51,642 bases of DNA from the NCBI GenBank assembly GCA_910890315.1, contig CAJVGD010000023.1:1-51642 (forward strand), given 5' to 3'. The first letter of the stretch is position 1. Every line of letters starts with the position of its first letter. Shown piece after piece: positions 807 through 43,003 of this stretch. This DNA comes from Serendipita indica DSM 11827 (lineage: Eukaryota; Basidiomycota; Agaricomycetes; Sebacinales; Serendipitaceae). The position numbers were made by a program, and so were the translations under genes. The notes under the pieces were generated by a model. It had not been told where the DNA came from and did not search any database. It saw only the letters and a program-made list of their open reading frames with translations.

Positions 807-2815
807 AAAAATGTCGTTATCTATGAAGAAACCCTTTGTTTGAAAACTAAAGCAAGGTATAACTTACAAGAGAGCGTAAATGCATAAGACAGAGACGCGA
901 CGAAATGCGAAAGAAGGATGGATGAGTAATTCTCATAAACTATGAGACCTGTCAGGTGTTTGAGCTTGAGGTCGAGAGTGTTCACTGCAAGAACCGAGCG
1001 AATCTGTACAGGCGTCGTCGTAATGGGGAGCATTGGCCTCTATTCGACAACAGGGTAGGACTTACGAGGTATATGCCTCCCAATTGACGTCAAGTTCTGA
1101 GAAAACAATCAATTTGAGTCTCGCTGAGCATGATTCACACACCATGAACGTGCGCGGCGTCTAATCTCAATTATTTGATGCCCTATATCTCCTCTCTTCA
1201 ATTATAGGCGCCGTTGACCAGTCTAGCGTTCCATGATGGGCGTGTTTGCTTCAGAAGAAGGTTGGGAATGGACTACAAGGCTAATACAGTGACTATTGAG
1301 AGGACATTTAGGCTTGAAACGATTGAGGGATGAGCACCTACATGACTATCTGCGCGGGCGGGCAGACAAACCCTCGCCCATCCAGTGTATAGTCACCGGG
1401 AGGTCGACTATGTGGCCGTGAAAGGCCTAAGCATAGTATCTATTAACCATAAACCTCTTAATCAGGCCGAATACTTGCAGAATCGGACCAGCAACATTAG
1501 TTCGCTGTTATTGGTGCACTACCGGGCTATTCGTGGCTCCTGTTCTCCTCAAACGGTATTCGTGAGCTCATTTACCTCGTATTGATCCCTTCGTACTCAA
1601 AGGCCATCGGTTCTACCACGTCCAATCGCGTAAGCAGTGCGTTTGTGCTCGAGGTTCAGAGCACATGTCTTGAGGCATTTTTTAAAGCTTCTTCCCGCAT
1701 TCGTGTACCATATTTTGCAGTAAAGGCAGAGCTACTGCCAAGCTGCACGGCGCTCATAGTGGCGGAGCCAAGTTATCGAATCACAGCATCCGTTTGTGCG
1801 ACGCTTTGGGCGCACTTTGCTAGTTGTGGAAACGCTACAGACACCAGAAAGACACATATATAGAGCACTATATTCACAATTCCTCATTTTCTTAGAGCTA
1901 CGACAATTTGCCGCTCACAAGGTCTCTCTGGAACGGGTCTCATTAGGTGCCTTACAAGGCAATTGCCTTGCAAAGCACTTTCTAGTTTTCCGACAGGAGC
2001 TTCCACCTCTGCCTCAAAGACCGCATGACTATTGACGAGCTGTAGTGCGACACCACTGACTCGGCAGCAGGCCTCGATAATATTGCTATCCGGTTAGCCC
2101 GCGGGGCAGAGGTATAAGCCCTGTTGAACCAAATAGTATATAAATACATGGGTGACTTGTCTCTTCATATTTGTGATTTAGTTCAAATAACCCGAGTCGC
2201 GCTCTCAAGGCCGCTCCACAGTTTGGCTTCTTAAGTCTAATGACGTCGGTGTGCCACTAGTCTATCGATGGTCATCCTTTGTACGACGTTTACAGGCTGA
2301 ACAGGGAGATAGTGAGCGTGAGCTGCATAACGGCATAAGGAAAAGTCTAGAAAGACTCTGAGTGGTAAATGTAAGATACATAGGATAACTCGCCTTGTAC
2401 AAGGCGGCTGAAAGACTTGAACCCACAGAAGCGACAAAGTATCCTGACAAAGGCAACTCGAGAGTTCTATAGGACGCGGCGTATAGCCATGCATGCGACA
2501 AGTAAGTAATTAGAATCAGAGAAGTCCAATTGGTATCCTCGGCAAGAAACGCAATGCCGTCCGAGCCTACAAAGCATCCGTGGAGCGACTATTGCCTTGT
2601 TCGGGAAATAGGACGGAATATACATTGGAGAAGAGATCAGGGACTGGCTAGGAAGAGTTGCAAGAAGAGAAGTCAACGTCATCGTAGTCAGTCAGAAGCC
2701 GGTTCAACTCAGTGGAGTCGTTAGCGTTAAGCTCCATAGATACCATTACCTAAAAACAGCGTACGGATAAGCCTCTATATTAGGTATTCTGACAATATGC
2801 AGGAAGTCAACGACA
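807..2815. other. About 2 kb without a recognisable gene
   Basis: Only short open frames without domains are visible on either strand. No tRNA or rRNA signature was seen. The missing first exon of esterase copy 1 should lie in the right-hand part of this stretch, but nothing like its signal peptide or N-terminal strand can be recognised, so that piece was lost or badly eroded. Confidence 0.5.
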
Positions 2816-2821
2816 TTGGCG

Positions 2822-4111
2822 GATGGCAGAGTCAATATTTGTCTAAGAGAATCACCCGCCCGCCGTGGGTGGAGGTTGGAATGCGGGCCAATCAGGATCT
2901 GCGTGTACGTAAAACGGCCCCAACATACCTTTAGTGGCTTACATATTCCAGTAAACAACATGACGTCGTGGGCGGTAGCTCATCCCGAGGTGGTATTTGT
3001 GTCTTTCAACTACCGGCTCAACATTTACGGCTATGCAAACTCTCCCGCCATTTCCAAAGCGGATACGAATGCCGGCCTTCGAGACCAACGCACGGCTGTG
3101 GAATGGGTCGTCGCGAACATCATAGCGTTTGGAGGAGACCCGACTCAGATCACGCTTGGAGGTCAATCCGCCGGTTCGGGTAGTATTGGAACGTACATCT
3201 ACGCATATGCGTCACGTCCTCTCATTAGAGGCGCTATTCTCATGAGCGGCCAGGCAGCAACGACGCTCACCCCTCCTCCCATCCCGATTCCTGGCGTCCC
3301 CGCCGCTGGCTCCAATCCGTTCCCAGACGTTGCAATCGCACTCGGATGTCCTCTTCAAGGAGACAAATACAAAGCACAACTCGACTGTGTCCGTACAAAG
3401 AGTGCGGAGCAGCTCATGGACGCACTCAACTTTACCAACACGCTCGGCGTCTCTCCATTTGTCGATAATACGACGGTGTTCACAAAGGCCGAGTACAAAT
3501 CTAGGGGGCGTGCAGGAAACTTTGCGCGAATCGTGAGTGCTCGCGAGACAGATGGGGTGTAACCATTGATCCTTTATTAGCCATTGCTGACAGGCACCAC
3601 TGATAAAGAAGGTGACATCTTTGTCTTGGACAGGACAACAAACACCCTCAACGAAACTCTTTCGGATCTATTGACGTTGTCCGTCTTTAGGTGCTATGAT
3701 AGCCAGCAATCCAAGTACAATCTTTGACACCTCGGATGGGCACTGCTAACATGCATATCCAGGTACTCGTCGTCACTGACCTCGGTCTATCGATATAGAT
3801 ACATGGCCATCTTCCCTGCCCTATCTCCACCGCCTCTTCGCGCCTGGCATACGTCGGATCAGATCGTTCTCTTTGATGTCTTTCCAGGTCTCGCTCCAGC
3901 AGCGACCCAATATCTACAAAAGGCTTGGACCGCATTCATTGTCAACCCCAGCAACGGCCTGCTGTCACTTGGCTGGAAGAAGTATCAAGGCCCTGGAAGT
4001 AATACCCTCGTCGACGTATTAAAGAACAGCACCGATTTACAGCACCCAATCGACCTGGAAGATCCGACGTCTTTCGACTCTGGATGTGCGGCATTAGGCC
4101 TTGGATTATAG
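2822..4111 (+). pseudogene. Type B carboxylesterase copy 1, 5'-truncated
   Basis: An alpha/beta-hydrolase of the carboxylesterase/lipase type, homologous to the two copies downstream. It lacks a signal peptide and roughly the first 100 residues. Only the end of exon 1 is left, with the oxyanion-hole GGGW motif encoded just before a donor at 2905. Exons 2952-3532, 3581-3714 and 3763-4111 then read in frame through three introns of 47-48 nt placed exactly as in the other copies. The nucleophile motif GGQSAGSGS, the acid in DKEGD and the histidine in WHTSDQ are all present, so the catalytic triad survives although the front does not. It is probably a pseudogene made by an incomplete duplication or a 5' deletion. 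An unannotated upstream start cannot be excluded. Confidence 0.75.
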
Positions 4112-4801: not shown

Positions 4802-6404
4802 ATGGCATCCACAGTTCTCCGGGTCGTTACTTTCTGGCTTACCCTCGCCGCAGCTGGCCTTGTCCGGGCGGCTGTACCAGTCGTTCAAACGTCTTCGGGC
4901 AAAGTACAGGGAAAGGCCGTCTCGAATAAGACCAATGCATATCTCGGCATCCCGTATGCTCAACCTCCAGTTGGACCTCTTCGTTTCCTGGCACCGAAAC
5001 CGCTCTTCACCCCCTTCGCCGTGCGGAACGCGACCACATTTGGGTTTTCGTGCATTCAATTTGGGTCCAGCTCCCCTTCTGCAAGCGAAGACTGTCTCAC
5101 GGTCAACGTCTGGGCCCCGTCGTCGCCCTCTCGAAAACTCAAACCAGTCTTCATTTGGGTTTATGGGGGAGGCTGGAACGTTGGGGAATCTTCATCTCCC
5201 TGTATGTAATCAAGTATAAACGTGCTATCTCTGAAATTTTCCAGACAATGACCTGACCTCGTGGTCAATCGCCCATCCCGAAATCGTCTTCGTCTCTCTC
5301 AACTATCGAGTCAACCTTTACGGGTATGCAAACTCACCCGCACTCTCAACTGCGGACACGAATGCCGGTCTTCGAGACCAACGGGCCGCTGTCGAATGGG
5401 TGTTTGCCAATATCGCGGCATTTGGCGGAGACCCTGCTCAGATCACGCTCGGAGGGCAATCTGCAGGTTCGGGTAGCATTGGAACATACCTCTACGCATA
5501 TGCTTCACGACCGCTCATTCGAGGCGCTATCCTCATGAGTGGACAGGCAGCGACAACCATGACCCCTCCTCCCGTCCCGATTCCCGGTGTTCCAGCCGCG
5601 GGGGCTAATCCATTCCCCGATATTGCAACGGCCGTTGGGTGCCCTCTTCAGGGCGCAACTATAAAGCTCAACTTGACTGCGTCCGCACCAAAAGCGTGGC
5701 ACAATTGACAGCTGCGCTGACCTCTACCAACACTCTTGGTGTCTCTCCCTTTGTCGACAACACCACCGTCTTCTCGGTTCCGGAATACAAGTCCAGAGGC
5801 CGTGCCGGAAAGTTTGCAAAAATTGTGAGTAAATCGCGACGAAGTTTTTGTGTGTGACGATTGACCTGCCGGTAGCCACTGCTGACTGGGACTACCGATA
5901 ACGAAGGCGACATTTTTGTTTTGGATAGGGCGACCAACACGCTCAACGAGACTATCTCGGATCTATTGACCCTATCTGTCTTTAGATGCTATGACAGTCA
6001 GCAGTCCAAGTGAGTGTTGTGTGACTCCTGCAGTAGGATGCTGATATGAGTCCAGATACTCTTCGTCGTCTGTGCCCGTATATCGTTATCGTTACATGGC
6101 CATCTTCCCGGCGCTCTCTCCACCACCTCTTCGCGCCTGGCACACGTCGGACCAAATTGTTCTCTTCAATCCAACTCCAGGTGTTTCGGCAATGGCGACG
6201 GATTATCTGCGAAAGGCTTGGAGTACTTTCATCGTAGAACCCACCAATGGTCTTGTTTCTCTCGGCTGGAAGAAGTACCAAGGTCCTGGAAGCAAAACTC
6301 TTGTCGACATCTTCAAGAACAGCACCGACCTACAGCATCCGATTCAACTTGAGGACCCCACGAGTTTTGACTCGAGGTGCGCGGCGTTAGGCCTCGGGCT
6401 GTAG
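4802..6404 (+). pseudogene. Type B carboxylesterase copy 2, with a one-base frame change
   Basis: A secreted ester hydrolase by family: an N-terminal hydrophobic signal peptide, the type B motif around EDCLTVNVW, the oxyanion-hole GGGW, the nucleophile Ser in GGQSAGSGS, the acid in DNEGD and the His in WHTSDQ. Exons are 4802-5201, 5245-5824, 5876-6009 and 6056-6404, with introns of 43-51 nt at the positions used by copies 1 and 3. Near 5650, just after the CPLQG segment, the frame shifts: the total is 1463 nt, one short of a multiple of three, and the aligned stretch is one base shorter than in copy 1. If real, the product ends at about 5708, before the catalytic His. Everything after this point is well conserved in the other frame, so the change is very recent or an assembly error. 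Confidence 0.8.
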
Positions 6405-6767: not shown

Positions 6768-8379
6768 ATGGCTCGATTCCTCATCGAATTATTTGCAGCA
6801 TTCCTCTTTTTGGCCGCTGCTGGCCTTGCTCAACAGGTGCCAATCATCCAAACCACGGCAGGGAAGATTCAAGGAAAAGCAGTCTCGAATGCAACCAACG
6901 CATATCTCAACATTCCATATGCTCAACCACCCGTCGGACCGCTCCGTTTCCTTGGCCCTCGGCCTATCCTTACACCATTGACGCAACGCAACGGAACAGC
7001 GTTTGGCAACTCGTGCATCCAAATTGCGGCTCCGACCCCAATATATACAGTCGAGAGTGAGGATTGTCTTTACCTCAATGTATGGACGTCGCCATCTGCG
7101 ACATCCAGACTTCGGCCAGTCTTTATATGGTTGTACGGTGGCGGCTGGAACTCTGGAACTGCCAGTGGATATTGTGCGTATCTGTTGCTTGGAATGCGGC
7201 TAATCTCTTTTTTTTTTCAGTCAACGACCTTACCAGCTGGGCAAAGGCACACCCTGAGATTGTGTTTGTATCGATAAACTACCGGCTCAACTTTTACGGC
7301 TATACAAACTCTCCCGCTCTCTCCTCTAGAGATACCAACGCTGGGCTCCGTGATCAGCGAGCAGCGGTCGAGTGGGTAGCGGCAAACATTAGAGCGTTTG
7401 GCGGGGACCCTACCCATATCGTCATCGGTGGTCAGTCTGCGGGAGCCGCCAGCGTAGCGGAGTACCTATATGCATATCCTCTGCTTCCTCTCATTCGTGG
7501 TGCTATCACTATGAGTGGCCAGGCAGCTCTTGCCAATGTCCCAGCGGCGGGCAATATTCCAGGCTTACCGAGTCAAGGCCCGAATCCATTCCCGAAGATA
7601 GCCTCCTCTGTCGGATGTCCGCTAATCCAAAACAACTATGCGGCTCAGCTCGACTGCGTGAGAACGAAGACCGTGGCCGAGATTACACAGGCCATCAGCG
7701 CCAACAATGTATACGGAATATCCCCTTTTGTCGACAATCAGACGTTGTACACGACTGCAGAGTACAAAGCTAGGGCAGGGGCTGGAAGATTTGCTCGCGT
7801 GGTGAGTATCGATCGGCTCTTCGTTTGCCTCCTGACAATCAATATATAGCCATTATTGACCGGAACGACGGAGAATGAAGCCGATCTCTTCGTCATCGAT
7901 CGCACGACAAACACGCTGAATCAAACGCTCTCGGATTTGATTACTCTCGGTGCTTTCCGGTGCTTGGATGCGCAACAAGCAAGGTGACGATACACTACTA
8001 TTAGTCTTGCAAATTCCTGAGCATTATCAGCTACTCTTCAAAAAAGGCTCCAACCTATCGTTATCGATATATGGGAGTCTTTCCAACCCTATCGCCATCC
8101 CCACTCCGCTCGTGGCATGCGTCTGATCAGGTAGTCCTTTTCAACGGTGCGCCATATCTCCCCTCAGTGGCTGTCGAGTACATGCAACAAGCTTGGAGTA
8201 CATTTATCGTAGATCCCAACAATGGATTGCTGTCATTTGGTTGGCAAAAATATCAAGGATACGGTACAAAGACGTTGGTGGACATCTTTCGCAACAGTAA
8301 TGATCTTTCCCATCCTATTCAGCTCGAGGATCCGACGTCGTTTGACGCCTCGTGTGGGGTACTCGGACAAGGGCTGTAG
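6768..8379 (+). CDS. Secreted type B carboxylesterase, copy 3 (intact)
   Basis: Predicted 489-residue extracellular carboxylesterase/lipase that would hydrolyse ester bonds; its substrate cannot be told from sequence. Exons 6768-7173, 7221-7801, 7850-7983 and 8031-8379 total 1470 nt and stay in frame. It begins with a signal peptide (hydrophobic run FLFLAAAGLA) and has the type B signature EDCLYLNVW, the oxyanion-hole GGGW, the nucleophile Ser in GGQSAGAAS, the acid in ENEAD and the histidine in WHASDQ. Length and motif order are normal for fungal members. It is the only fully open copy of three tandem paralogues and is more diverged from copies 1 and 2 than they are from each other, which suggests the 1/2 duplication is younger. 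Confidence 0.88.
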
Positions 8380-10235: not shown

Positions 10236-11750
10236 TTATGACTTGTACATATTGACAGAGCTCCGCGGAGATGCCGTGGGGACTTGTCCGTTCCATGTTG
10301 CGGCAAACAGGGTGTTGTCTTGACAGGCAGAGCCGAGTCCAGAGCTGATTTACGTCAGGGATGCAACATGAAGAATGTAGTGAGCACCTACTTTGTCAAC
10401 CAAGTCGGTTCCCAATAGAAGACACCCTTTCCAAGCCCGTTCGGTAGCCCGCAAACAACTTGGGCAACCTTTTGCATCCATTGTGTCTGCCCACTAGCAC
10501 TTGCTGGAATGCTGGGCTCCGACAGAGTGACACCAGAGCAAGACGCGGGCCAATCCGTCTCTGCGACAATGATCGGGCGACCATAACGGTTGGCCATATT
10601 GGTGAGTGTCGTCTTCAGTCTCGATAACGTAGCAGATGTATCTAGGTGCTTGTTAGATAGGCTATAAAGGTCCTGTCATGCCCCCACCGTAGAAGGGGTA
10701 GAAAGAAACGCCAATGTAGTCGACCTTGTCGAGCGTTAAAGCCCCTTGCACTTGTATATTGTCCCACCACCATTGCTGGAGGCTCCAGTCCCAGCCATTG
10801 TCGATATGGATCATAATCTTCGGTGGGCTGCTAGTATTTCCCGCGAGAGCCCCGCTCCGACCAGAGTTGAGAAGCTGAGAGAGCGAGTTCCAATTCGGTG
10901 TCTTTCCCGTCGGCCAAAGCAATCCTTGGCGAATCTCATTTCCGATCTGAATCATGTCGATGTTGACGCCCGCATTCTTGAACGCCGTCACGACGTCTTT
11001 GGTATATGTGTAAATCTTAGTGTTGAGTGAAGAGAGGTCACTAGGCCACCCCGATGGCAGAGTTTGATGCGCGGGATCGGCCCAGGTGTCTAATAGATGT
11101 GAGATCGAGGCATTGTTACGGAGAGAGCGCACCCGAGTAGTGCAAGTCGATGAGAACCTTCATTCCGGCGTTTTTGGCTCGCTTTGCCAGGGCAATCGCA
11201 TAGTTGACTGAGTAGTCTCCTGCCGTCCAGATTCTCAATCGTGCATAGTTTGCACCTCCACTGGCGAGAATCGTAACAGCATCTGATTTTTGGCCAGATG
11301 CGTTGAGAAACGTCGGCGTTCGCTCTTTTTCCATCAATGCGAGCGACGATATGTCGTGACCTTTGAACGAGAGGCAACCTATGGGCATAATGTCAAATAA
11401 CTGCATGCAAGGATGAATATTCGCACTCGTTGAGCCGCCAGAGCTGGCAGACCCTTGCGTGCTAGACGGGGCACTACTAGAGGAGCTTCGCGTTGTGGTT
11501 GCTCCTCCTCCACCGCTACCAGGAAGACATTGAGAGTACCATTCGTTTGAGTATTGGCACGTATATCCGGAGACACAGGTCTTTGGACCGCTATACCCAG
11601 ATCCGCCTGCGATACGCGGTCAGCCATCTGTAAGACCATCGACTCGTATGAGTTACCGCATTGACCATAGGCGGGGGACTGTGCCGAAGCAGACAGCGCA
11701 ACCGACAGAGTAATGACTGCGAGCGAGAGCGACCGCATTGCAATGCTCAA
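10236..11750 (-). CDS. Secreted endo-beta-1,4-galactanase (GH53) with N-terminal CBM1
   Basis: Arabinogalactan endo-beta-1,4-galactanase that would cut the galactan side chains of pectin. Exons on the minus strand are 11657-11750, 11427-11606, 11133-11378, 10688-11089, 10392-10641 and 10236-10344, 1281 nt or 426 residues in frame. The ATG at 11738 is equally likely and places the signal peptide at the very start. Order: signal peptide, a CBM1 cellulose-binding module (QCGG, then Cys-rich to [10 protein letters not shown]), a Gly/Ser/Thr linker, and the GH53 barrel. Catalytic acid/base Glu is in IGNEIRQG and nucleophile Glu in VAETDWP; HYSDTWADP is a typical family motif. Every intron is 43-50 nt. 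A CBM1 in front of GH53 tethers the enzyme to cellulose near its pectic substrate. Confidence 0.9.
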
Positions 11751-13385: not shown

Positions 13386-14017
13386 ATGGCACTTGTCCCT
13401 ATCGTCAATTCAGGCAAGTACAAGATTAAGAACGTCAAGTTTGGCGCCATCCGGGACGACGAGGGTTCCTTGGGGGCAAAAGGCAACTCCAAGTCCGAGG
13501 AACTTGTCGTAAGTTTCTATTGCATCTAAATGGGAAATTTTTCTCATTCATTTCCAGTGGACTGTCACTCTGAACCCCGACAACTCGCATACCCTTCATG
13601 CCATCTCCGCGAATGCACCCGCTATCGCTGGAGGGCCCGTCACCGAAGTTTCGAAGCGTTTCTATATCAGCCTCGAGAACCAATCTGCCCAGGGCGTTCA
13701 TTGGTTCCTTCAGCCAGTTTTGATCGGCTCTGATCCCCGTATCCTCTATGCGTACGATAAATGCTATTTCGTGACTATCCCTCGCTTACATCTGTACCCA
13801 TAGCATCTACGAACCCGGTAGGAGGGGCCACTGGGAACTGTGTAGCGCAGACAAGAAGGAGCCTGTAGGTTCATTTTCATCTACGCTGACATAATGACTA
13901 ATCTAATTACAGGTGAAGCTCAACAGGGAGCCTCATGATGACGAGAACAAGCCTGTTCCGACACACTTTACTCCGGAGGCCCTCTGGGTCTTTGAGCATG
14001 TAATAGGCGACGAATAG
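13386..14017 (+). CDS. Small cytosolic protein, probably beta-trefoil I66-type protease inhibitor, copy 1
   Basis: Four exons (13386-13508, 13558-13751, 13804-13864, 13913-14017) give 160 residues in frame. There is no signal peptide and no transmembrane segment. The opening SGKYKIKNVKFG, the central WTVTL strand, the RFYIS / IHWFLQP-type strand and the ending FTPEALWVFE recall the mushroom I66 serine protease inhibitors (cospin/cnispin), which fold as beta-trefoils and start with a similar YKI strand and end with a PTELWEI-like motif. The match is by memory of the fold pattern, so the inhibitor role is an inference; a lectin-like beta-trefoil is the main alternative. A paralogue with the same exon sizes lies 2.4 kb downstream. 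Confidence 0.6.
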
Positions 14018-15796: not shown

Positions 15797-16433
15797 ATGT
15801 CTCTTATGCCCATCGTCAACTCTGGTCAGTATAAAATCAGAAATCTCAAGTTTGGTGCCATCCGTGAGGACGAGGGTGCGCTGGGAGCGATAGGTAACTC
15901 GAACTGTGCAGAGCTCGTCGTATGTTCTTAACCACCTCTAATTAAATTGCTTCTCTAACACTTTCTCAAGTGGAACGTTACTTTGAACCCGGACAACTCA
16001 CACACCCTTCAGGCTGTGTCTGCAAAAGCCGCAGCTGTCATTAGTTGTCCAGTCACTGAAGTCCCAAATCGCTTCTATATCAGCGTCGAGGAAGAATCCG
16101 CGCCGGGAATTCATTGGTTCCTCCAGCCAGTGCTGATTGGTTCCGACCCTCGTATTCTCTACGCGTACGTAATACATCCTGTCACGGATATTTGACACTC
16201 ATATTGTCTGATAGTATCTATGAACCCGGCAGGCATGGCCACTGGGAACTTCTAAGTGCAAACAAGAAGGAACCTGTAAGCTCGCTCGAATCCTGGATCC
16301 ATGGATATGTAAACTTTGTTTTATGTAGGTTAAACTCAACGAGGAACCGACTGATGATGAAAACAAGCCAGTTCCCACCCATTTTACTCCAGAGGCACTT
16401 TGGCTCTTCGAGTATGTCGCAGGTGCTGAGTAA
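15797..16433 (+). CDS. Small cytosolic protein, probably beta-trefoil I66-type protease inhibitor, copy 2
   Basis: Exons 15797-15919, 15971-16164, 16215-16275 and 16329-16433 have exactly the same sizes (123, 194, 61, 105 nt) as copy 1 and give 160 residues. The proteins agree over most of their length, including LNPDNSHTL, QPVLIGSDPRILYA and KPVPTHFTPEALW. Differences gather in the central part after SHTL (AKAAAVISC against ANAPAIAGG), which could be an exposed loop. No signal peptide is present. Introns differ in sequence and by up to five bases in length. Function as in copy 1: protease inhibitor likely, lectin possible. Confidence 0.6.
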
Positions 16434-17506: not shown

Positions 17507-20500
17507 CTATGAGCTTGTTCGAACTTTGGTCCACAATGTCCCACACTGGAAATTAGTGAAATCAAGTTTGGTCGCTCTAAGGTGACTTGAAGTGGGCATA
17601 GTCAGAACAAGACATGGGTGCTCCAGTCCATGACGATTATTAGGTGGTACCCAGAAGAGGTATTGACCAGAAGACTCCACCCATCCGTCGGGCAGCAAAG
17701 AACAATCACCAAATCTAGGTATAAAGAGAACTGGAAAAAACTTGATATGGCCAGAGAAACGTGTTCTATTTGATAGATTACCTACATTTAGCGTACGGTC
17801 AGTCACCATAACAAACTGACACTACAAACCAAAGAGATATTCAGAATCGACTCACCATTGTCCGAACTCGAGATTTGAATTGTCCTACTAATGGAGCCAG
17901 AGACAACTTGTGTGCCATCTGGTGAGAATGCGACAGCGTTCGCCGAGTATTCATGACCTTGGAGTGGCTCTCCCAATGGCTGGCCAGTCTCTGCATCCCA
18001 CTGTCGAATTGTGCTGTCCCTTGAGCCAGAGACGATTCGTGTGCCATCTGGTGAGAATGCGACAGCGTTCACCGAGGATTCATGACCTTGGAGTGGCTCT
18101 CCCAATGGCTGGCCAGTCTCTGCATCCCACTGTCGAATTGTGCTGTCCCTTGAGCCAGAGACGATTCGTGTGCCATCTGGTGAGAATGCGACAGCCATGA
18201 CCTCGTCTTCATGACCTTGGAGTGGCTCTCCCAATGGCTGGCCAGTCTCTGCATCCCACTGTCGAATTGTGCTGTCCCTTGAGCCAGAGACGATTCGTGT
18301 GCCATCTGGTGAGAATGCGACAGCCATGACCTCGTCTTCATGACCTTGGAGTGGCTCTCCCAATGGCTGGCCAGTCTCTGCATCCCACTGTCGAATTGTG
18401 CTGTCCCTTGAGCCAGAGACGATTCGTGTGCCATCTGGTGAGAATGCGACAGCAATGACCTCGTCTTCATGACCTTGGATTGGCTCTCCCAAAGGCTGGC
18501 CAGTCTCTGCATCCCACTGTCGAATTGTGCTGTCCCTTGAGCCAGAGACGATTCGTGTGCCATCTGGTGAGAATGCGACAGCGTTCACCGAGTATTCATG
18601 ACCTTGGAGTGGCTCTCCCAATGGCTGGCCAGTCTCTGCATCCCACTGTCGAATTGTCCTGTCCCTTGAGCCAGAGACGATTCGTGTGCCATCTGGTGAG
18701 AATGCGACAGCGTTCACCGAGGATTCATGACCTTGGAGTGGCTCTCCCAATGGCTGGCCAGTCTCTGCATCCCACTGTCGAATTGTCCTGTCCCAAGAGC
18801 CAGAGACGATTCGTGTGCCATCTGGTGAGAATGCGACAGCCATGACCTCGTCTTCATGACCTTGGAGTGGCTCTCCCAATGGCTGGCCAGTCTCTGCATC
18901 CCACTGTCGAATTGTGCTGTCCCTTGAGCCAGAGACGATTCGTGTGCCATCTGGTGAGAATGCGACAGCGTTCACCGAGGATTCATGACCTTGGAGTGGC
19001 TCTCCCAATGGCTGGCCAGTCTCTGCATCCCACTGTCGAATTGTCCTGTCCCTTGAGCCAGAGACGATTCGTGTGCCATCTGGTGAGAATGCGACAGCGT
19101 TCACCGAGGATTCATGACCTTGGAGTGGCTCTCCCAATGGCTGGCCAGTCTCTGCATCCCAGCTGTCATGAATTGTGTCTGTCGAATTGTGCTGTCCTAG
19201 AGCCAGAGACGATTCGTGTGCCATCGGGTGAGAATGCGACAGCCATGACCTCGTCTTCATGACCTTGGAGTGGCTCTCCCAATGGCTGGCCAGTCTCTGC
19301 ATCCCACTGTCGAATTGTCCTGTCCCAAGAGCCAGAGACGATTCGTGTGCCATCTGGTGAGAATGCGACAGCGTTCACCGAGTATTCATGACCTTGGAGT
19401 GGCTCTCCCAATGGCTGGCCAGTCTCTGCATCCCACTGTCGAATTGTGCTGTCCCTTGAGCCAGAGACGATTCGTGTGCCATCTGGTGAGAATGAAACTG
19501 CTGTGACACTACCCTGGTGACCTAGCAGCGTTCTGGGAAGCTCACGAAATGTTTCTTCAAGCCCTCTGGTCACAATTAACGAATTCATATACTCCTTTAA
19601 ACCCTCCGTATGAAGTACTGACTTCCGTGGACTGAATGGGAGAGATGAGATGTAGATGTGTGGTGCGCTGTCTTGGATTGGTACAGAGAATGCCATCAAA
19701 AACCGTCTGATGTCATTCATCCGACCTCGGATCTCTTGCTCAAGCTATCTGTTGCTTTAGTAATCGGAAGGTCTCAAATAGTCCACGCACGCTCTTATGT
19801 TGCGTCGCAGCTCGCATTCCAGATACTGCCCGCATGACTCCTCCAGTTACGCTGAGGATCTCCATCCAATAGAGTGCGAATGGACTTTTGACTATACGTG
19901 CCAGCTCATTCCTTAGCCTGCGGCCCCAGTCACCGTCCATTGCGGCCACATGGAACGGCCAGTGCAAACTAGCATAGCGAAGCCTCCGCGAAATGAATTT
20001 CGCCACCCGGGCGTCAAGGTCTGTAATCTGCCTATTCAGATAGAAGGATGACTCGATTTGGCAAATATTAAACTTGAGCCCCTCCTTGCGCGATTTGAGA
20101 GTGTGAAGACACCATGATGCGGCTTGGCCATGTGCACGCGCGATGTTGATAAGATTCCTGTCGCAATCACCGATAATTTCGGTGCCACAGCGTCGTCGAA
20201 GATATTCAAAAAAGGTGGGGTGACGAAACTGTATCGAGTGCGTGATCGGATCCTCCTTAAGTACACTTCCCAGAATCCGTACCAGCGCTTCGGCACTCCC
20301 TTGTCCTTTGGTATGCTGAACAAGATCTTCCAAGTCATGGGTGGTGAGTGGTTCGAACGCAGCAAGCAGCATACCGAGCATTTCAATGATAACTGGTTTG
20401 GATGCTCGGTCAATGCGCTCGAAGACGAGGTCGTATACCTCGTCGATGGCTCCAGGCTGATCAATAGACGTCAGGCGATCATATATGGCCGCTGTATTGA

Positions 20501-22595
20501 CCGCAGATGATTCATCATCGAGCATCCGACACGCAGTGCTCGCCCAAATGAACAGCCCCTTGGCCTTATCAACCAGTCGCTGGATCTTATCTGGCGTCAG
20601 GCGCCGGCCAAGCAATCGATGGACGTATATCGCAACGTCATCGATGTTGTCGCGGTGGCTAGCATCGTGGAGCCGATCTGTCAGCTTGGCCTTGATAGAA
20701 AGAGGTTCTAAAACCCTTTCGACCACAGGGTCTGGTCGACTTGTGATGAATATCCGAAGATTCTTGCTCTCCTGAGCAGCAGAAGCGAGAGTCTCAACCA
20801 GTTCTTTTCTCTGTGCTCCAGACTTGCATTCGTCAAGTGCATCTAAGACGAGGACTACTTGCGTCTGTCGATGCTGGAGTGGGTCGGTGATGAGCATTCG
20901 AAACTGTTGATCAAAAGAGGCTCGTAGGAGAGCAGGATTCCGCTTTACTATCTCCGCAATCGGTGTCCCAAGCTCCGGAATATGTTGAGCGAGTTCCCTC
21001 GCCATGGTCGAGCAAAACTTTTCGGTGTCTGAGCTTTCGCTGCTTGCCATGGAGAAGAAGAATCCGCCGCCTAAGATTCCTTGCTTCTTCCACTTCTCCA
21101 TTGCAGTCATCGCGACGGTCGATTTTCCAGAGCCAGCTATATCACATAGCCAGAAGATCGGTTTTTCTGATGAATCGCCATCGGCCCATTGCGAGATTGT
21201 CTCGAGGACAGCCTGGCGAGTTCCTTGTAGACAGGTGGTATGGACAGAGGATGGGGCGAATGCGACTACCGGCAGTTGAGATACGAAAAGCGCGTCGTCT
21301 TGAGAATATTAGTAAACCTTCGTGTACACGAGATAGTTCATACCTGGTTGAGGGATGGTTCCTCCTTCACGACGGCTACTCGTGGGTCAGGAAAGAATCA
21401 GCGATGAGTATGTTACGAACTGCGCAAGTTATTCTCCATAAACCATTTTTGTGCACGGCATCGGGGCGTTCTCAGCGCACTCCGTGAGATAGTAAGCAAC
21501 TGCTTGGTAATCTTCACTCTCTTCCGTCTGGAATCTGACAAGGTTCTGGTGATCGCTATGGAGTACGACCGCAATAGCGTTTTGATCGCCAGCGATCACC
21601 GCCGAGTGATACGGAACATTCTATAAGCCAGTTAGCACCCACCCATAAGACGATTTAGCGCACCTACCAAATGTATCTGCTGTTCGTCGGCTCCGGTGCT
21701 GTATTCCTCGCAGAAGAAGACGCTGTTTATCTTTTTACTCGCGGTGAGATACAAGCTCTGGATGTTTTCGAGTTCATCCGAGTGAGCGTGAAGGTTCTTG
21801 ACAATGACTTCTGTCGATTCCATACATGGTGCTGCCAGGCGAACGATCTTCTTAAGGAGCGTTTCTTCTACGCCGGAATGCGGGGTTCCAAAGAAGAGGA
21901 TGGAATGGGTGGATACCACGATATTTCGTAGGCCGTCTTTTGATTCCAGGTCCTCATTGTTGCATATGACAAGCGCCTATGAGACCGTCAGGGTCAAAAT
22001 GTAGTGGACATCCTCGGACGAACCCATTTGAGAATGATGCCTCCCAAATCGTGAGCAACAAAGATGATGGGGCGCTAGGGTGATTAGGGAAGAAGGCACC
22101 GGTTTACGGATGCCACTCACTCGAGGAGCATCTTTACGCTTCCGTAAAATAGCTTGAGCCAGACCGACGGCGTGGCGGCGCATAGTCTGGGTCGATACGC
22201 ACTCCGTACTGTGAGTGTCGGCGTCGTAGCCATAGGTCAGGATACGGGCACGAGGCAATGAGGACGGCAAGAATTGGCGTAGCCAAAGAACGCCATCGTC
22301 TGTCATCCAAGTCTTTTCTCTGTGACCATTCAAGCCGTGGATTGCTATGATACTGGAGTTGGGAGGTCAGCACGAAGCGACTACAGTGCCCCGAATGTGC
22401 TTACTCGACGGTGGGATCCTCTGGGCATACCAATTCCAGGAATCCAAGGTCTTCCTTCTTGGTTTTGGACGTAGAGGATTTCGATGTTCTAGGATGTTCA
22501 CTTGCAGCAGTCCGATCGTTCAGTCGTTGCCAAAGTCGGGCAACATGATTTAGGCCTCGTGGAAATGGCCGTGCTTTGCCTTGCTCTTGTGACAT
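17507..22595 (-). CDS. NLR-like receptor: SesB-type esterase, NACHT, 13 WD40 repeats (one frame change in the repeats)
   Basis: A fungal STAND/NLR-type signalling protein of the allorecognition/immune class. Exons on the minus strand: 22405-22595, 22121-22352, 22024-22074, 21668-21976, 21457-21620, 21344-21375, 19791-21298, 17856-19744, 17507-17781. Introns are 45-81 nt and all keep phase. Domains: alpha/beta-hydrolase (SesB-like) at about residues 60-290 with AIHGLNG and [13 protein letters not shown] from about 350 with Walker A GSGKST near 382 and Walker B LVLDALDE near 478; WD40 repeats of 43 residues; and a C-terminal DGWV / LFWVPP tail typical of the family. The expected nucleophile Ser in the esterase GxSxG is Asp (AHDLGG). 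In the third WD40 repeat (around 19160-19200) a net 16-nt insertion changes frame; read literally, the product stops near 19166 after about 1020 residues instead of about 1540. Confidence 0.85.
17860..19530 (-). repeat. WD40 array: 13 tandem 129-bp repeats, nearly identical
   Basis: Each unit is 129 bp (43 residues) and codes a full WD40 blade (GHE.., [24 protein letters not shown]). Most units are identical except at codons after GHE (SS, YS or DE with VNA, VMA or VIA) and before the TIRQ strand (RDR, RDS or WDR). The first ([11 protein letters not shown]) and last ([11 protein letters not shown]) units are more diverged, as expected when inner units are homogenised. Because 129 is a multiple of three, long repeat-made open frames also appear on the opposite strand and are artefacts. 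Confidence 0.92.
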
Positions 22596-26219: not shown

Positions 26220-26647
26220 TGTAAGGTTTTTGGTGAGAGTGAAGACGTTGTGAACGTCGAGTCGAGACTTTGTATTCAAGGAACGATGAATAAAGTCGAC
26301 TTTAGACGAAAAGAACCTGTGTAACGCGTGTATATTGAGGACGGTTACAAGGGAGTACAAGTCTACTCTTCTGATACGAGAACGGTCAAGTACTACAGGC
26401 TATATAGAGGGTGTGGAAATAGATCGGAAGGAATGGAGGAACTGAGGATGTAAATCGGGACGAGCAGAAGGCATCTGACTCAGGTATAGGGGTAAAAGAG
26501 TGACGATGGTCAGAGGACCATAAGGAACAGAACGGGAACAATGTAGCGAATGGAGATGGTAACTAGGACAAGGACTAATGCGATGAAGAATAATCCTTGA
26601 TTCGCACGAGGTAGCAGCGTCGTGCAGAGCAGACGCGCGAGCCTACA
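26220..26647 (-). repeat. 3' LTR of the Ty3/gypsy element
   Basis: 428 bp, bounded by TGTA..TACA, identical to the copy at 34973-35400 except for about one base. A G/A-rich polypurine-like tract lies next to its inner edge on the minus strand. Confidence 0.93.
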
Positions 26648-27400
26648 TACGCCCTCCAGTCCTTGGACTAGGCTATCGCTCAGTGAGCGGGGTTGTAGTA
26701 CCTTGAGAATTCTCTCATACGAGGAGGTGGATACGTATCCATGTGCGGGAATGCGTGATGGACGAACTTTCGACCGCGAGGATGATGATGATGTTTGTAG
26801 GGCGCCACCCATTGAGTGTACGGGGTTCCTGAGTGCGCGGGTCCGTGGTATTGCGTCACGGGCACGTCTAATTCGGATTCCGGGCCGTTCATCACGACGT
26901 CTACCATGCGAGTGAGTCTTTGTTGACTTTGAGCCTCTCATATTATGCTGCTCACCACCATCATTCGACACTTCTTCTTGCTTTCGGCAACGACGTCGCG
27001 ACGGGCGAGAAGAAGGCGTTCGAGTAGGAGGTGCCTTGCCGAGCGAAGGAAGCAGTTGCGAGACCGGTTCCTCCTTGACGGAGGGTTCGGGTGCATTGGG
27101 AGCTCGTGTATAATCAGATCGAGTTCTGAAACGTTCCATGAACACACCATGAGAGACGTTGCTTTTCGCTTTAAGCTTTTCCACAGCTCTTTCGAGGTCG
27201 TGGATCCGCTTCTTGACGATTTCGAGCTCTCCAGCTAGGACAGGTTTGAGCTTTGCGGTGACAGATGCGGAAACGCGGGGAATAATAACAAGCGTCTCAT
27301 CATCGACAGGTGTATCGTCAATGATTGGCTGTGTTGTAGTCACCAGTTCAGTGGGGGAGTCGACTGAAGACATGGTGGCTCGACGCGAGGAATGAGAACA
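26510..27400 (-). other. C-terminal extension of the element's pol, ending inside the LTR
   Basis: After the chromodomain-like segment the element's frame continues for about 300 codons: an acidic stretch, a probable coiled coil (EIVKKRIHDLERAVEKLKAK), an Arg/Ser-rich part, and a strongly hydrophobic end that would span a membrane and is coded by LTR sequence. Whether it is functional is unknown. Confidence 0.5.
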
Positions 27401-30400
27401 AATGGGTACTGTTTGTGAGATAGCTGAGGTGGGTTCGGGCTTTATAGCCACAACCGCTACGCGTATTTGCGCGTCATTGGGAGTCTTTCCCTGTCCTTCA
27501 GCCAGCCCTTCGATTGTTTCGACCCCTTGCGCCTCTAGGTAACGTTCCATCGCTGCCAAGGCTTTGATTGTAGCGTATAACTCCCAGGATTTATCCCCAG
27601 ATTTCCATAGTACCTCGAATATAGCTCGTTTGCCCTTCCCTTCGTGTGACACGATCTTATCTACCGGCCACTCCGAAGGTTTTCCAAAGCCAGTCACATG
27701 CTCTAAGGTGCGTCCCGGGAACTTTCTATCGTCATTAGGAATGTGTATACGCAGCAGCGATGCATGAAATACAGGGTGTATTCCTCTCTGCTTCAGTTCT
27801 GCAGGTAACTCAAGCCTAAACGACGCTCCAGGTACGATAACCTTCACTATCTTGTATGGCCCAATGTACTTAGGTATCAATTTCCTAGCACGGCCTTTAG
27901 GGATAGAGAGGTTCTTCGTTGATAGGTACACAAGATCTCCTTCGGCGAATGGAGCCGGTCTGCGGTGTTTATTCGCTTCAGAGGTTTGTTTCACTCTCGC
28001 AGATAGAATGGCGTCGTGCGCGCTCAGAATAGCCTCACGAATTTCAAGAGCTCGTTTCCTGACGCCCGGATAAACCGTTTCGTCAGTGGTAAGCATAGAG
28101 CGCGGCATTTGTCCGTAATTTAGGAAGAATGGCGAGTATCCCGTGGACACTGATCTAGCCAAGTTCATAGCGAATTCAATGGCAGGTAACTTCGTCGCCC
28201 AGTCTCTCTGATGGTCTGATACGGCTTGTCTGAGCATTGTAGTCATTGTGCGGTTCGCTCGTTCAGTCGCCCCATCGGTTTGAGGGTGGAACGAGGTGCT
28301 AAGCCGGAGTTCGACACCGATCAGGCGGTGTAACTCTGTCCAGAACGTGCTTGTGAAGTATGAATCTCTATCGGATATAATTCGCTCCGGAAGACCATGT
28401 ATTTTATAGACTTCTTCGAAAACAAGTTCGGCAACATCCTTGGCGGTGTATGTCTGTCGCATAGGTACTAAGTGCACCATGGAGGTCAAATGATCAATAA
28501 TAGTGCATATCATGTCATATGAGCTATCCCTGTTCGAGGAACTCGGGAGTGGTCCGACAAAGTCAATTCCAATTGACTCCCAGGCACGCTTCGGGACTTC
28601 AAGTGTCTTTAATAGTCCAAAAGGTTGCGTGGGAACTGCTTTCGAATGTGCACATGTCGTACATGAGCTGCAGTACTCGGAAATATCCTTACTCATTCCT
28701 TTCCACCACACGTTCTCTCTGAGGTAACTTAGAGTCTTCTCAGCGCCTAAGTGGGCTAGAATCGAGTGCGCGTGTGTGATTAGGATTTCTCGGACTTTTC
28801 TTCCTTCAATTTCGACGTCAGGTATGCACAGGACTCTTTTTCCGTCAGTTTTATGATACAGGAGTCCATCATCGAGCATGAAGTGATTGTATCCAACAGG
28901 ATTCTCGGCAATTGGCGCAAAGAAACTGTCATCACTGTAACGACCACGGAGTCCACCTGGAAGGCTAATTCCTTCTTCCGCTTGGTTGACTAGGTACGTT
29001 AAGCTCGGAGAAATCTCTGGTAGATCATCGACATCATGTGTTTGGTTCACAGCTGTCGGTTGGGTCGTCTTGGGTATGGCCGGCTCTTCACTACACGGAC
29101 TTTGGCGTCTGTCAATCTCGGAGAATTGGTCGCGTGCCTCGCGCGCTTCATTTTCTGACGTGGGATTAGGCGTTTGATTCGGCAAATTGACTCCGATCAC
29201 GCTAGGATTAGAGTTAACAGTGCGTTTTGGCGGCTCCTCATCACTCGCTGAGTTCTCTTCAGATTCAGGGGAGAGTTCACGCGTAAATATCGGCCGTTTT
29301 GGCGTCGCTGGCTTTGGTGTAGTCAGTTCGGCCCGAGGGGCGTCGCCCTCCACTGTCGCTCCGACAGTTTGCCCTTGATTGCGCGCTTTTTGCGCTCGCG
29401 TGACAGCAAATGCCGCCATCTGGGCCTGTACAGGTTTACCAGTATAGAGTGGCTTCGATCTGGCCATACGACCGCGGATTATCTGTTCAATTTCCTTGGT
29501 CTCCTCTTTGCTCATAGGTCGTGTTACGTACTCGCTGTCAGTGCGGATGATTCCCTTTGGTTCATCCGAATATATTCTGGATAAACCATCCGCAATGCAG
29601 TTTTCGCCACCAGGCACGTATGAAATCTCAAAGTCAAAGTGAGAAAGTTCTTCTAGCCATCGTTTCTGGCGTGCGTTCAGCGATCTCTGCTTAAATAGTG
29701 CGCCGAACGGTTCATGATCTGAATACACTGTGAACTTTGTGCCATAAAGAATGTGCACGTATCGTTTTAGTGTGGTGACTATTCCAAGGAGCTCTCGGTC
29801 ATGCGTAGGGTAATTTTGTTCAGCAGGGTTGAATTTTCCCGACCAAAACGCGAGAACGCGTCCGGATTCGATATCTTTCCCTGCCAAATTACTCCGCCAG
29901 CCCCTGTCAACGACGCATCCACATGGACACCAATTGGATCAGCTCCGGGTTTCCGGTCGGCAGTCTCACGACGGTTCCCTCGCCACTTGCAAATAATGCT
30001 TTTGACCTCTTCAAAGGCTCTCTGCTCGGTAGCTCCCCAGTGCCATGGTTTATTTCCCTGCAATTTCGACAAGACGGCTAAGGGTATTGCCACACCATGA
30101 CAGTCTCGAGCTAAATACTGAACCATTCCAGTGAACGCTGCCACTTGTTCAGGAGTCGTTGGTGTCTTCCAGTTCTCAATCCGGTCAACCTTGTGCGGGT
30201 CCATTAGGATTCCTCGTTCGTCAATGACGTGTCCGAGTACCTTTAATGGTCTGGCAAAGAACTGGAGCTTCTCGACTGAGGTAAGGTATAGTTTCTCTTT
30301 CCTCAGGACATTAAGCACGGTACGGATATGCTCAATATGCTCTTCCACCGTATTAGAGAAGATGATGATATCGTCTAGGTATACGAACATGAATTTCCCT

Positions 30401-33400
30401 GCATATGGAGCGAATAACGAGTTCATGAGCGTTTGGTACGTCGCTCCTGCATTACAATCTCCTTGCTGCATCACTTCACTGACCATAGTGCCATCAGGCG
30501 TGTTAAAGAGAGTCTTCCACACGTCGTCAGGATCAACTCGAATCTGTTCGTACGCATCACGTCCATCAATGAGTGACTTATGCTGATATGGAGCGACAGT
30601 CTCGAGGATTGTTTGTATGTCAGGTAGTGGAGATGAGAGTTTGATTGTATTCTGGTTAAGTCTCTGCTTCGCAAACACAGTCCGTAGGCGTTTCTCGCCA
30701 TTTAGGCCTGGTTTCTTCGGTATGAACAACATGGGGACAGCGCTACTTCCAGTGGCATATTTCCACCGACCTGTACGAAGGTATGTGTCGCGTTTGCGCT
30801 CCCATTGTTCCTGGAAGGCTTGAGGGCATCGAGATGGGATGTATAGTAACTGAATTGACTCGTCTTTCAGTGGTATTCGATGATTAACGACTCGATACGG
30901 CGGAAGTGGCGTCTCGTCAGCCGATTTGCACAGGTCAGCCGCCTCTAGTCGCATCATTTCTCTAACCCTCTCAAGATTTTTATCGAGTATACGAGCGGCT
31001 TGTGATGATATTCTCGCCGTGTCATCGCCTTGAATAGGCTTCGATTTCACGCTCTCAAATGCGAAGCGGGTTGGGTTAAAACCGACTAAAGCTTGATGCT
31101 GGAATAGAAACGGTGTACCGAGGATAATGTCATATGAATCTATGTTCATGACATCAAATCGTCTCGATTCAGAGATTTCCTCATACTGTAATTTAACAGT
31201 AGCCGTCGCGTTTATCTTACCACGAGATCCTCTGACTGCCAATTGCACCGATAATGGCACTTCAAGGTTGTCATACGGAATCTTCAGCTGGTCTACGAGA
31301 GTAGTGGATATAAAGTCGGCCATAGAGCCCGAATCTACGAGCATTCTAACCGGATTGCCATTGATAAATCCATCTAAAACGCAAGGCTTCGGCGTGCATC
31401 TTTCGATATCTCGAGTTTTTGCTGCGTTACGCTCAATGAGGGTGCCATTTCCCTGTCGTGCGGGTCTTCCCCGTCGCGATTTCACCTCTCCGGTCATGTG
31501 TACGCGGAGATGTGCCTGATTTTCACTTTCCTCAGGGTCGCTTTCTTCGCCATTTGGCGGAATTGCGCCGTCGTCTCGGCTGAATCTCGCTAACAATCTT
31601 GTGAATCGTTCTCTGAATGGCAGTGCGTCGTCATCTGCGAGTTCGCTGTCGCTACAGGGCGATATTCTCTCGGAATCAGAGTTTGAATCGTCTATGAAGG
31701 GCCTGTACGTTGTCATTGCGTCTCTGAGTTTCGCATATTGACTATCTATACTAGACTTTGTCTCGAACAGTTCGTCGGACTCTGAGTCTGAACTGTCAGG
31801 CTCGTCATCGTGCATTTCCACATCGGAATCTACCGGCACAGGTATCAGGGCTGGTAAGTCATCGTCTTCTGAGGGTACTTTATTGATTATTTCCCGCTCA
31901 AGTATGTCAAAATCATAGTCGCAAGCCTGAATCTTTGCGTCCGGTTCTAGCAAGTGAGCCCATTCGGTTCTCTGTGAGTCTGCGTACTCGTAGTAACTTC
32001 GGCAGATATCAAAGTCTTCATCGTGTAAGTCCATAGCAGTGAACGACCACTCTAATCCGAGTAATAGGTCATCGACAATGAAGATACCGGGGCAATCTTC
32101 CATGGGTTCCACGATAAATCGCTTTCCCTCATACCCAATGGCATCATGCACAATCGGGATGTCATGGAGCCCGGTCTCTAGTTCGCCTTCGGCCCATATC
32201 TGGACTCCAAGGTTTCGACATTTAACCGTATTCCGGTCTGGTTCGGTCACTGGGACAAATAGCATGCTTCCGCACATCAAATTCGTCACATCCTTGGCCT
32301 GGGCATCGATCTGATCAAAGGTAATACTCCCGGATATCAGTTTTGGGGGCCTAAGCTGATTTCGCTTCGGGCAATCATGCGCTCTATGTCCAGTTTCATG
32401 ACAGTTGAAGCATTGACCTTTAGCTCGGTGCTCTTCCATCTCTTCAGCAGTTAAACGACGATGCGTCTGCTTTGAGGTGTTAAAGTCACCCTTCCGCCCT
32501 CCAGTCGAAGTATGCTTCGATTTCTGACCACCGTAAGTTTTTCCTCTTCGATCTCTGGTGTCATTTGGACGAGGTTTGACATTCCTTGCGCTATCCTTCT
32601 TTAGGATCGAAGCAGTTCGGATCATCCGAGACTCAGTTTTGTCTCGTTCAATCTTCATCTGCTGTTCCTTGCGCTCAATACGCTCTGCAGCCTCTTTCAG
32701 CTGTTCAAACGTCGACTGCTCACGCGAATATCCCTCTCTACACCACTCAATGCGAATGGTAGGTCGCGCACCGTCCCAGAACTGTCTGATCTTCTCCTTC
32801 TCGCTTATGTCGCCTACAGGCTTCGCGAGGTCTCTAATTCGCTGGGACCATGCACGCACCGAGAGAGTACCCTGGTATGACTTCGCAAATCGGTCTCTGA
32901 GTTGCTCTATGATGTTCGACGGAAATAGCTCGTCAAAGAATAGTCTAATGACTTGATCTTGCGTCCATTGTTCAATCTCTGGCGATACAATCGACATGAA
33001 GGTGCGTCTCGCTTTCCCTTCGAGGAAATTCGAAAGTGTTGACACTCTCATGTCCTCTGGTACGGCGTGATTCTTGTACCACAAGTTCACATCGAAGAGC
33101 CATGACTCAAAGATATCGATATTCGCATTACCATTCCATTTCTCCGGCGGTAATAGCTTCAGGGCTGACGCTATCTTAGCGCGGTGAGCCTCTTCAGCTT
33201 TCTCTCTTCGCCGTCTACTGTTCTTTGACTTCTTACGCTTCCCTTTAGATCTTCCAGCGGCACTCACCTCTGAGTCAGAAGACGATGGTTCGTCAGAACT
33301 CGAGGAACTGCTGTCGCTCGGGTCGGGTGCATTAGCCAGGGCATTGGCCGGTGTTTTCGCCGATGAATCGGCTGTTGTACTGGCTATGCCGGCGTTTGTG

Positions 33401-34972
33401 CTTGGATTCGGGGCGCTGGCTGTCATCGGCGGTATGGTTGTCGTAACCGTCTTCGAGGTATCCACTTTCCCGGTATTTGCTCCGAAACCACTCGGATAAA
33501 TGATTCGAGACGGTTTGGACACGGTACTAGTCGCTTTTGGTCGCGATGGCGTCGCCATTTGGGCAAACAGGTATGTTGACGGATTAATCTGCTCCGAAGG
33601 CGGGATACTCAATGGTATATTGGTGAGAGGAACTACTCGTGGGACTTGCGAGCCCTCACGGATAATCTCGCTGACTGTTCTCTCGTTTCCAGCTTTGGCT
33701 CGTAGCTCATTTGCTCGCTCATTCGCTGGTCTCCGAATCGGCGTTGACATCACATTCATTTGTGGCCGCATGATGAATTCACTGCCTTCCTCGCCTTCAG
33801 AAATTGACTCAATTGTCATGTGTCGACCGGACCGATGTCTTTCGGGTCTACCCGGTGGTCTCTCAGACGCCTGGGCATGCTGTTCATCCAGCTCGTCTTG
33901 GATACGTTGCGCCACTTGGCGGTCATGTTCAATCAGGGCTAGCATGTCAGCTTCTAGCGAGCCTGCCTCAGGGGCAAATCGGACCGTCCCATCACGAGAG
34001 GTCATCGGAGGTAACTCGGTGGCTCTAAATTTGCCTTTCGCTGCCGTGGAGAATCGTTCAGGCTCAGGATCCGCTTCGGAGGGGCCTTGCAATGACTCCC
34101 TATCAGCGATTCGTGGTCCCGGTGCCGGCACACTCGGGTTCAATTGGGACAGTGGCATCTCTAAAGAGGCCAGAAACTCTTCTTTGGTCTTGCCTTGGGC
34201 AACTTCCCATAGCGCAATCAGCGCTCTTTCTTTATCCCATTCATCATCGATGCCTATCAGTCAGAGACACGGATTCTTGATCAATATGACTGTCTTTATC
34301 CTTGGGAACTACGCCCTCTTCGTCAGAGATAATACCATAGTCGTATCTGACGGTGGTATTGTCGCCTCCCTCGAAGCTCAATGGGAAGTGCTTCGGGCCG
34401 GTGATCGGCGACGTTCTTGAACCTTCGGGACTCCCAGTCCGAGTCCTGGCTATGCCCGAGGTTTCTGAATCACTGTTTCGCATCCTTCTCGGACGCACTA
34501 TCCTAAACTCTGACGGTCGTGTTTCAGAGTGGGGCTCGGCTGTCCTACCCACTTCTGACTCTAATGCGAACGGAGATACAGTCTGGTCCGGTTCGCCTGT
34601 GGCCTCATCCAAGATCGAGGCGACATTCTGTGCACTGGTATTCGCTATTTCGGGTGATCCGACTATAGCTCTCGCCCGCAGGCGCTCAGGGTATTCCTCC
34701 ACTGGACGTGGCTGAGTTCGACCCTTCTGGCTAGCCATTTCTTTTTGGATTTTATGCGCGCGTAAATAAAATGAAAGATGAAAGATAAGAGATCAAAATT
34801 TTTTGTTTTTGGGCTTTTATGAATATAATCAGAGGAATGAACGTCTCTGGTGTAGAAATAGATGATACGAGGCTTTGTCCGAGTCGAGAACGGAACAGAA
34901 TAGACAACACGAGGTTGATAAAGCCGGTGATCAGTCGGCTAGATCGGATATATACGCGATTGGGTTCAAAAA

Positions 34973-42472: not shown

Positions 42473-43003
42473 GTCACCCGTCGCTTGGTTGTAGTCACCA
42501 TAACTCTTGTAAAATAGTGAAATGCTGAATAAACATGGCTAGACCCCCAGTTTTGCGTTTGTGGCCGGTCGCCCCCGTGTCGCTTGCTTGGCCTCGCCGG
42601 TGTCAGGCCATTTGCCCAACTCTTGACCTTCTCCTCGACCGCCCTTTTCTTCCCACTCTTTTCTCTCGTATGTTTTCTTTTTCAGCAACAACTTGTGCAT
42701 TTCCTGACTCTTCCTTTTCTCCCGGCTCGCTTTTTTGGTGTCTCGCTGCCGCGGTGCTGTCTCGGGCTCAGTGGCCGTTGGGTATACTGCCGTCGAACAG
42801 TGCGACGAGCACATTCGAGACGATTTCAGTAAGCATAAACACCCTTTCCGTCCCCATGAAACGCAATCCCTGACGAATCCCGATTCAGTCTCGGTCCACA
42901 ACACGAAAATCGACGATTAATCTCCTCCGACGACCGGCATCTGCAATCCCAAGCAATATCGTCATACGTTCCAAGTTACTCTCCCCTCAAATCCAGTTTC
43001 ATT
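42473..43003. other. Spacer between monooxygenase B and the GH5 gene
   Basis: Pyrimidine-rich sequence with fortuitous frames on both strands; the right end carries the GH5 promoter. No gene is supported. Confidence 0.45.

Follow-up and report, generated by a model that had tools for sequence, protein, structure and literature searches.

Podospora anserina is known to carry HNWD receptors (HET-E, HET-D and HET-R), which combine a NACHT domain with a homogenized WD40 array and have a HET domain at the N-terminus. Variable codons of these genes have been placed at positions 7, 9, 25 and 27 (2007 numbering), paired around a position under purifying selection, with the pair 7 and 9 located in the d-a loop and the pair 25 and 27 in the b-c turn. 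A set of seven hypervariable sites has also been published for HET-E and HET-D in a different numbering (10, 11, 12, 14, 30, 32 and 39). Functional het-d/e alleles usually have 11 units, and HET-E has been modelled as 11 conserved and three cryptic blades making up two rings of seven. For fungal nucleotide-binding oligomerization domain-like receptors (NLRs), a 2014 survey (PMC4986451) reports that 21.6% of WD repeats reach its cut-off of >85% identity over at least 100 amino acids. Here we analyze a homogenized WD40 array on the minus strand of a 51,642-nt stretch of DNA (the window; positions 1 to 51,642 of contig CAJVGD010000023.1, assembly GCA_910890315.1, recorded as Serendipita indica DSM 11827). 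An original prediction, made from the letters of this stretch, had suggested an active HET-E/HNWD-type recognition gene with reshuffled repeats and a few diversifying positions. On the exon model presented below, the array belongs to a gene that is a fungal NLR composed of a DUF676-type alpha/beta-hydrolase domain, a NACHT domain and WD40 repeats.

One NLR-type gene surrounds the array on the minus strand of the window. Its inferred introns are of the GT-AG type and 45-81 nt long, and the sixth exon (32 nt) is the least certain part of the model. Once joined, the exons give an open frame that begins with the ATG at 22595 and continues through WD40 unit 2 (989 codons, no stop); a second one, of 512 amino acids, starts at unit 4 and ends with the stop codon at 17507. 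Only unit 3, across which no join of the reading frame was made, interrupts the gene model; no stop was found elsewhere. A central NACHT domain, C-terminal WD40 repeats (PF00400, E 1e-135) and an N-terminal effector-type domain on the spliced model are the features expected of a fungal NLR, and finding NACHT and WD40 domains in one gene by profile search bears out the receptor type that had been predicted. The parts of the gene are as follows.

17507..22595, minus strand: NLR gene, inferred nine-exon model with exons joined at GT-AG introns, no transcript seen
22595-22405, 22352-22121, 22074-22024, 21976-21668 and 21620-21457, minus strand: exons 1-5, inferred
21375-21344, 21298-19791, 19744-17856 (frame broken inside) and 17781-17507, minus strand: exons 6-9, inferred
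21457..22595, minus strand: DUF676 (SesB-like) alpha/beta-hydrolase domain, matched by PF05057 on the spliced model
19791..21298, minus strand: NACHT/NPHP3_N exon, profile matches to PF24883 (E 1.4e-27) and PF05729 (E 1.1e-12)
21134-21117, minus strand: P-loop GSGKST, within the NACHT exon
20852-20826, minus strand: Walker-B-like LVLDALDEC, within the NACHT exon
17507..17781, minus strand: C-terminal exon, an open frame after splicing

The array comprises 13 units (19522-17830, minus strand), and Tandem Repeats Finder reports a period of 129 nt and 12.3 copies. Thirteen almost identical units of 129 bp had been predicted; the number stands and 12 of the units have this length, while unit 3, overlooked at the time, has 145 nt and a broken frame, and the two edge units have diverged.

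19394..19522, minus strand: WD40 unit 1, matches the core consensus outside codons 2-10
17959..19393, minus strand: array core, near-identical units 2 and 4-12, with unit 3 among them
19120..19264, minus strand: WD40 unit 3, 145 nt, breaks the frame, with the additional length at about 19160-19205
17830..17958, minus strand: WD40 unit 13, differs at codon 6, then mainly from codon 17 on; its end extends into the inferred last intron (17855-17782)

Identity among the ten core units (2 and 4-12) is 91-100% in DNA; in protein its minimum is 86% and its mean 93%, as in other fungal NLRs above the 2014 cut-off for internal repeat conservation. Three pairs of core units are identical in DNA. Compared with the core units, unit 1 is 86-90% and unit 13 is 63-67% identical, and these two share 56% with each other. 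A uniform interior with divergence at either edge is the pattern expected from unequal crossing-over or gene conversion. No super-repeats of several units were apparent at lags 1-8, where identity ranged from 0.94 to 0.97 without an obvious peak. All unit boundaries from unit 2 onward (19393-17958) read CCAAG/GTCATG, which puts an AG/GT at the same place in each unit. Given AAG/GT at the boundaries, splicing could in principle skip units, the broken one included, and keep the repeat register.

Variation among the core units is concentrated in two short blocks. Twelve nucleotide sites vary, ten of them in codons 4-7 and 22-25, which together make up 24 of 129 nt (Fisher P 4e-7), and just six of 20,000 random placements have some two 12-nt windows holding as many sites. 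Amino acids vary at codons 4, 5, 7, 23, 25 and, once, 42; three variable sites are synonymous, two of them inside the blocks. The alternating residues are those of the original prediction, namely YS, SS or DE after GHE and RDR, RDS or WDR before TIRQ. The pattern in the blocks resembles that of linked sequence types exchanged between units. All four combinations occur in 16 of 55 biallelic site pairs, many of them linked and not independent, and every such pair spans the first and the second block, as the proposed reshuffling of repeats would give. Up to several bases separate the blocks, which makes recombination within units a likelier source of these combinations than repeated mutation.

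The variable codons were compared with the Podospora sites using a register based on equal spacing and loop position, with no HET-E sequence aligned. In this register, array codons 5, 7, 23 and 25 are taken as Podospora codons 7, 9, 25 and 27, which have equal spacing and lie in the same two loops, and the set of seven corresponds to array codons 3, 4, 5, 7, 23, 25 and 32. Five of the six amino-acid-variable codons fall within the seven sites, with all four strong sites included (hypergeometric P 1.3e-4, an optimistic value given the fitted register and the linkage of sites inside each block). Any of the remaining 42 rotations of the array's pattern brings at most three codons into coincidence with the seven sites. 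The likeness to diversifying positions of HNWD genes that had been noticed in the sequence is thus supported, in a register that comes from spacing and loop position. The HET-E repeat presumably agrees with this register.

AlphaFold2 folds seven consecutive units into a propeller (predicted local distance difference test, pLDDT, 96.9; predicted template modelling score, pTM, 0.92), with strands at positions 6-11, 17-22 and 27-31 of the unit. In this model the d-a loop contains codons 4 and 5, strand a opens with codon 7, and the b-c loop contains codons 23 and 25. The best Protein Data Bank (PDB) matches of the model include 5yzv and the highly repetitive 2ymu. The latter is known as the Nostoc WRAP protein. 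A published sequence rule defines the top-face hotspots R1-2, R1 and D-1, and under this rule codon 5 is R1-2, codon 7 is R1 and codon 23 is D-1, all top-face contact residues. Burial of the variable codons in the core had been set beforehand as one finding that would count against the prediction; judged from secondary structure and the rule rather than from atomic coordinates, they map to top-face loops and not to the buried core. Thirteen units and one cryptic C-terminal blade would give 14 blades in two rings, as modelled for HET-E. The C-terminal exon is possibly such a divergent closing blade, which we keep as a guess; there was no Pfam match past residue 47 of the 125-amino-acid piece, and hhalign gave a WD40 blade a probability of 0.05%.

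Repetitive WD40 proteins of bacteria offer a second comparison. We used eight plasmid arrays (L007-L014), hand-picked from 30 listed of 298 matching plasmid records. Like the fungal gene, they have many repetitive blades (11-16 per gene); the bacterial arrays are 46-64% identical to the fungal array among the 30 matches listed and are mostly less uniform, with units 58-85% identical among themselves over 31 residues. Anchored on H2 and W30 only, with 29 free positions, the mean variability ranking of the eight arrays is 5, 7, 4, 23 and 3, followed by 25 in sixth place. An earlier run was biased, as its template left the suspected positions free; the two-anchor rerun gave the same top five. On average the most variable positions are nearly the same as in the fungal array, and four of the top five are among its five block positions (P 0.001). 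Looking at arrays one by one, four block positions are in the top five of L007, L008, L009 and L013, and three in those of L011 and L012. Diversity at hotspot sites has likewise been noted in one published study of highly repetitive WD40 proteins. From this published diversity and the bacterial arrays together, we conclude that hotspot variation is a general property of repetitive WD40 arrays and is not special to allorecognition genes.

Some of the bacterial proteins carry caspase, TIR, NACHT or NB-ARC annotations; among the eight arrays, the annotation is caspase family for L008, TIR for L009, NACHT for L014 and either WD40 repeat or hypothetical protein for the others. The fetched stretches of L007, L009, L013 and L014 also contain recombinase, integrase, invertase/transposase or TnsA-like genes. 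Relatives were also sought in viral contigs, where the NACHT exon returned three stretches, none of them confirmed, and neither the WD40 array nor a 26-nt pattern found any. A search of genome contigs yielded 22 stretches, of which six were confirmed; all six are from Caballeronia and were left out of further analysis.

We consider it quite probable that the array serves a fungal NLR as its sensor, a mosaic of loop blocks on a uniform scaffold that works with a ligand-triggered NACHT switch and an N-terminal effector. In such an architecture an alpha/beta-hydrolase-like effector would be followed by the NACHT switch and by one or more WD40 propellers as the sensor. Unequal crossing-over and gene conversion would hold the scaffold uniform, and the loop blocks (codons 4-7 and 22-25) would be swapped among units, so that alleles would differ in the mosaic of contact residues that they display on the face of the propeller. 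When a ligand (non-self or modified self) binds at this face, the NACHT domain would be released and oligomerize, and this would in turn activate the N-terminal domain, with cell death as the probable outcome. The sensor end most likely works like that of HET-E. The gene is probably a recognition receptor; a role in allorecognition is unproven, and from sequence alone it would be indistinguishable from pathogen recognition.

Several observations weigh against this reading. At 145 nt, unit 3 shifts the reading frame. Over the ten core units the level of non-synonymous variation (pN, 0.044) does not clearly exceed that of synonymous variation (pS, 0.038), and inside the blocks two of five synonymous and eight of 19 non-synonymous sites vary (derived counts). 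A structural model of ten units, built with no alignment, is less certain (pLDDT 82.5, pTM 0.72); the fourteenth, cryptic blade is without profile support, and one of the 13 units counted is broken. Two of the bacterial arrays, L010 and L014, have just two of the five block positions in their top five, and the optimism of the P values for the Podospora register has been mentioned above. The selection comparison covers ten units of one allele, which is too few: with pN about equal to pS, the predicted positive selection per codon is not demonstrated, and the ratio neither shows nor excludes selection on residues.

Near equality of pN and pS would also fit a recently amplified ("nascent") propeller with neutral variation that is not driven by recognition. 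Blade amplification is reported to keep producing highly repetitive propellers; in one survey, 84% of the eukaryotic cases came from two fungal phyla. However, ten of the 12 variable sites are clustered in the two blocks and located on known contact sites, and the array has synonymous variation, most of it in the blocks, whereas Npun_R6612 is reportedly without synonymous substitutions. On balance we find a nascent, neutrally varying propeller improbable.

The broken frame calls for an explanation of its own. Aligned with its best-scoring intact core unit, unit 3 shows 18 gap columns and two mismatches. A full protein cannot be made from the copy as read, which is either a null allele or an assembly error, and the suggestion that the gene is active is not supported. 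We see an even chance that the break is an assembly or consensus error, in which case the real gene would be intact and its number of units may differ from 13. The changes are mainly length changes packed into unit 3, the other 12 units are all 129 nt long, and the remainder of the gene model is open. WD40 arrays of the het-d/het-e type have been reported as not confidently recovered by short-read assembly, and a single-base deletion in one long-read het-d/het-e allele was judged a likely misassembly. Yet real disruption is also on record: in one Podospora strain read mapping supports the stop codons, and in one survey 320 of 7,329 mapped repetitive propellers had high-confidence broken-off fragments beside them. 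We rate slightly below even the possibility of a real null allele or a young pseudogene, decaying once it was no longer useful. Pseudogenes of the NWD type are known in Podospora, and the frame break itself and the similar pN and pS fit such a decay; the absence of stops in the 989 codons upstream of unit 3 and before the natural stop downstream, and the 129-nt length kept in 12 units, speak against it.

The N-terminal domain sets this gene apart from its Podospora counterparts. HET was absent among the three Pfam families matching the N-terminal 316 amino acids up to E 0.1; because no HET domain was found, the gene is, by its domain content, not an HNWD member, contrary to what had been predicted. 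A DUF676-type hydrolase domain is found instead of HET. The array also differs in having 13 units rather than the usual 11, in showing no excess of non-synonymous change and in its broken frame. The match to PF05057 covers residues 65-247 and profile positions 8-187 of 217, which is most of the domain, at E 2.5e-4 and 21.0 bits, barely above the cut-off of 20.3. No PDB relatives of this domain were found by sequence up to E 1. In the exon 22074-22024 we read the elbow motif, without a family alignment, as AHDLGG, which has aspartate at the expected serine position. In the DUF676 family the elbow carries a serine, the nucleophile of the GxSxG motif. Some alpha/beta-hydrolases use aspartate. The domain may be a pseudo-enzyme or a hydrolase that uses aspartate.

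Passages of a 2022 survey (PMC9815663) describe SesB-like effectors as almost missing from basidiomycete NLRs, only 23% of whose N-termini were annotated. Compared with the basidiomycete NLRs of that survey, a SesB-like/DUF676 effector would be an unusual combination here if the host is a basidiomycete. We take the host to be one in line with the original prediction, the shortness of the introns and the style of the gene. An effector-type domain preceding NACHT speaks against a WD40 scaffold protein for symbiosis or signalling in place of a non-self receptor. Such a role, which we hold to be very improbable, draws on Piriformospora indica, where an expansion of these protein-binding families has been discussed in terms of possible communication with the host. 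The gene could also be a basidiomycete NLR in which an atypical, possibly non-serine hydrolase effector is joined to a homogenized WD40 sensor, with two independently recombining loop blocks per unit that would create a combinatorial contact face; in this full form we regard the proposal as doubtful. No basidiomycete NLR shown to act in allorecognition is named in the literature passages surveyed, which is not proof of absence.

Other features of the window include the coding region of a Gypsy-type long terminal repeat retrotransposon (26510-34260, minus strand) with matches to gag, protease, reverse transcriptase, RNase H and integrase, in two frames that overlap at 29779-29938, close to the reverse transcriptase/RNase H junction. 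Three tandem frames with carboxylesterase-family matches are found on the plus strand (2771-3562, 5235-5708 and 7061-7849). At 10662-11619 (minus strand) lies a gene of glycosyl hydrolase family 53 that includes a fungal cellulose-binding domain. Three frames with flavin-dependent monooxygenase-like matches were detected (38488-39405 and 40713-41618 on the plus strand, 46861-47805 on the minus strand), and a GH5 cellulase-family frame (42874-43968, plus strand) lies between the second and the third. A 73-nt stretch occurs in two copies, 79% identical, at 13800-13872 and 16211-16283, which suggests a pair of small related genes. The second of these (16211-16283), spliced by eye, had no Pfam match and resembles a fungal protease inhibitor.

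The same positions vary in one fungal gene, in the Podospora genes and in eight bacterial arrays, which agrees with the published view that variation in repetitive WD40 proteins sits at their contact hotspots. The frame break in unit 3 is a caution against judging such genes from a single assembly. If the gene is functional in other strains, it would extend HNWD-style diversity, in which contacts are shuffled on a uniform scaffold, to a different effector and, probably, to basidiomycetes.
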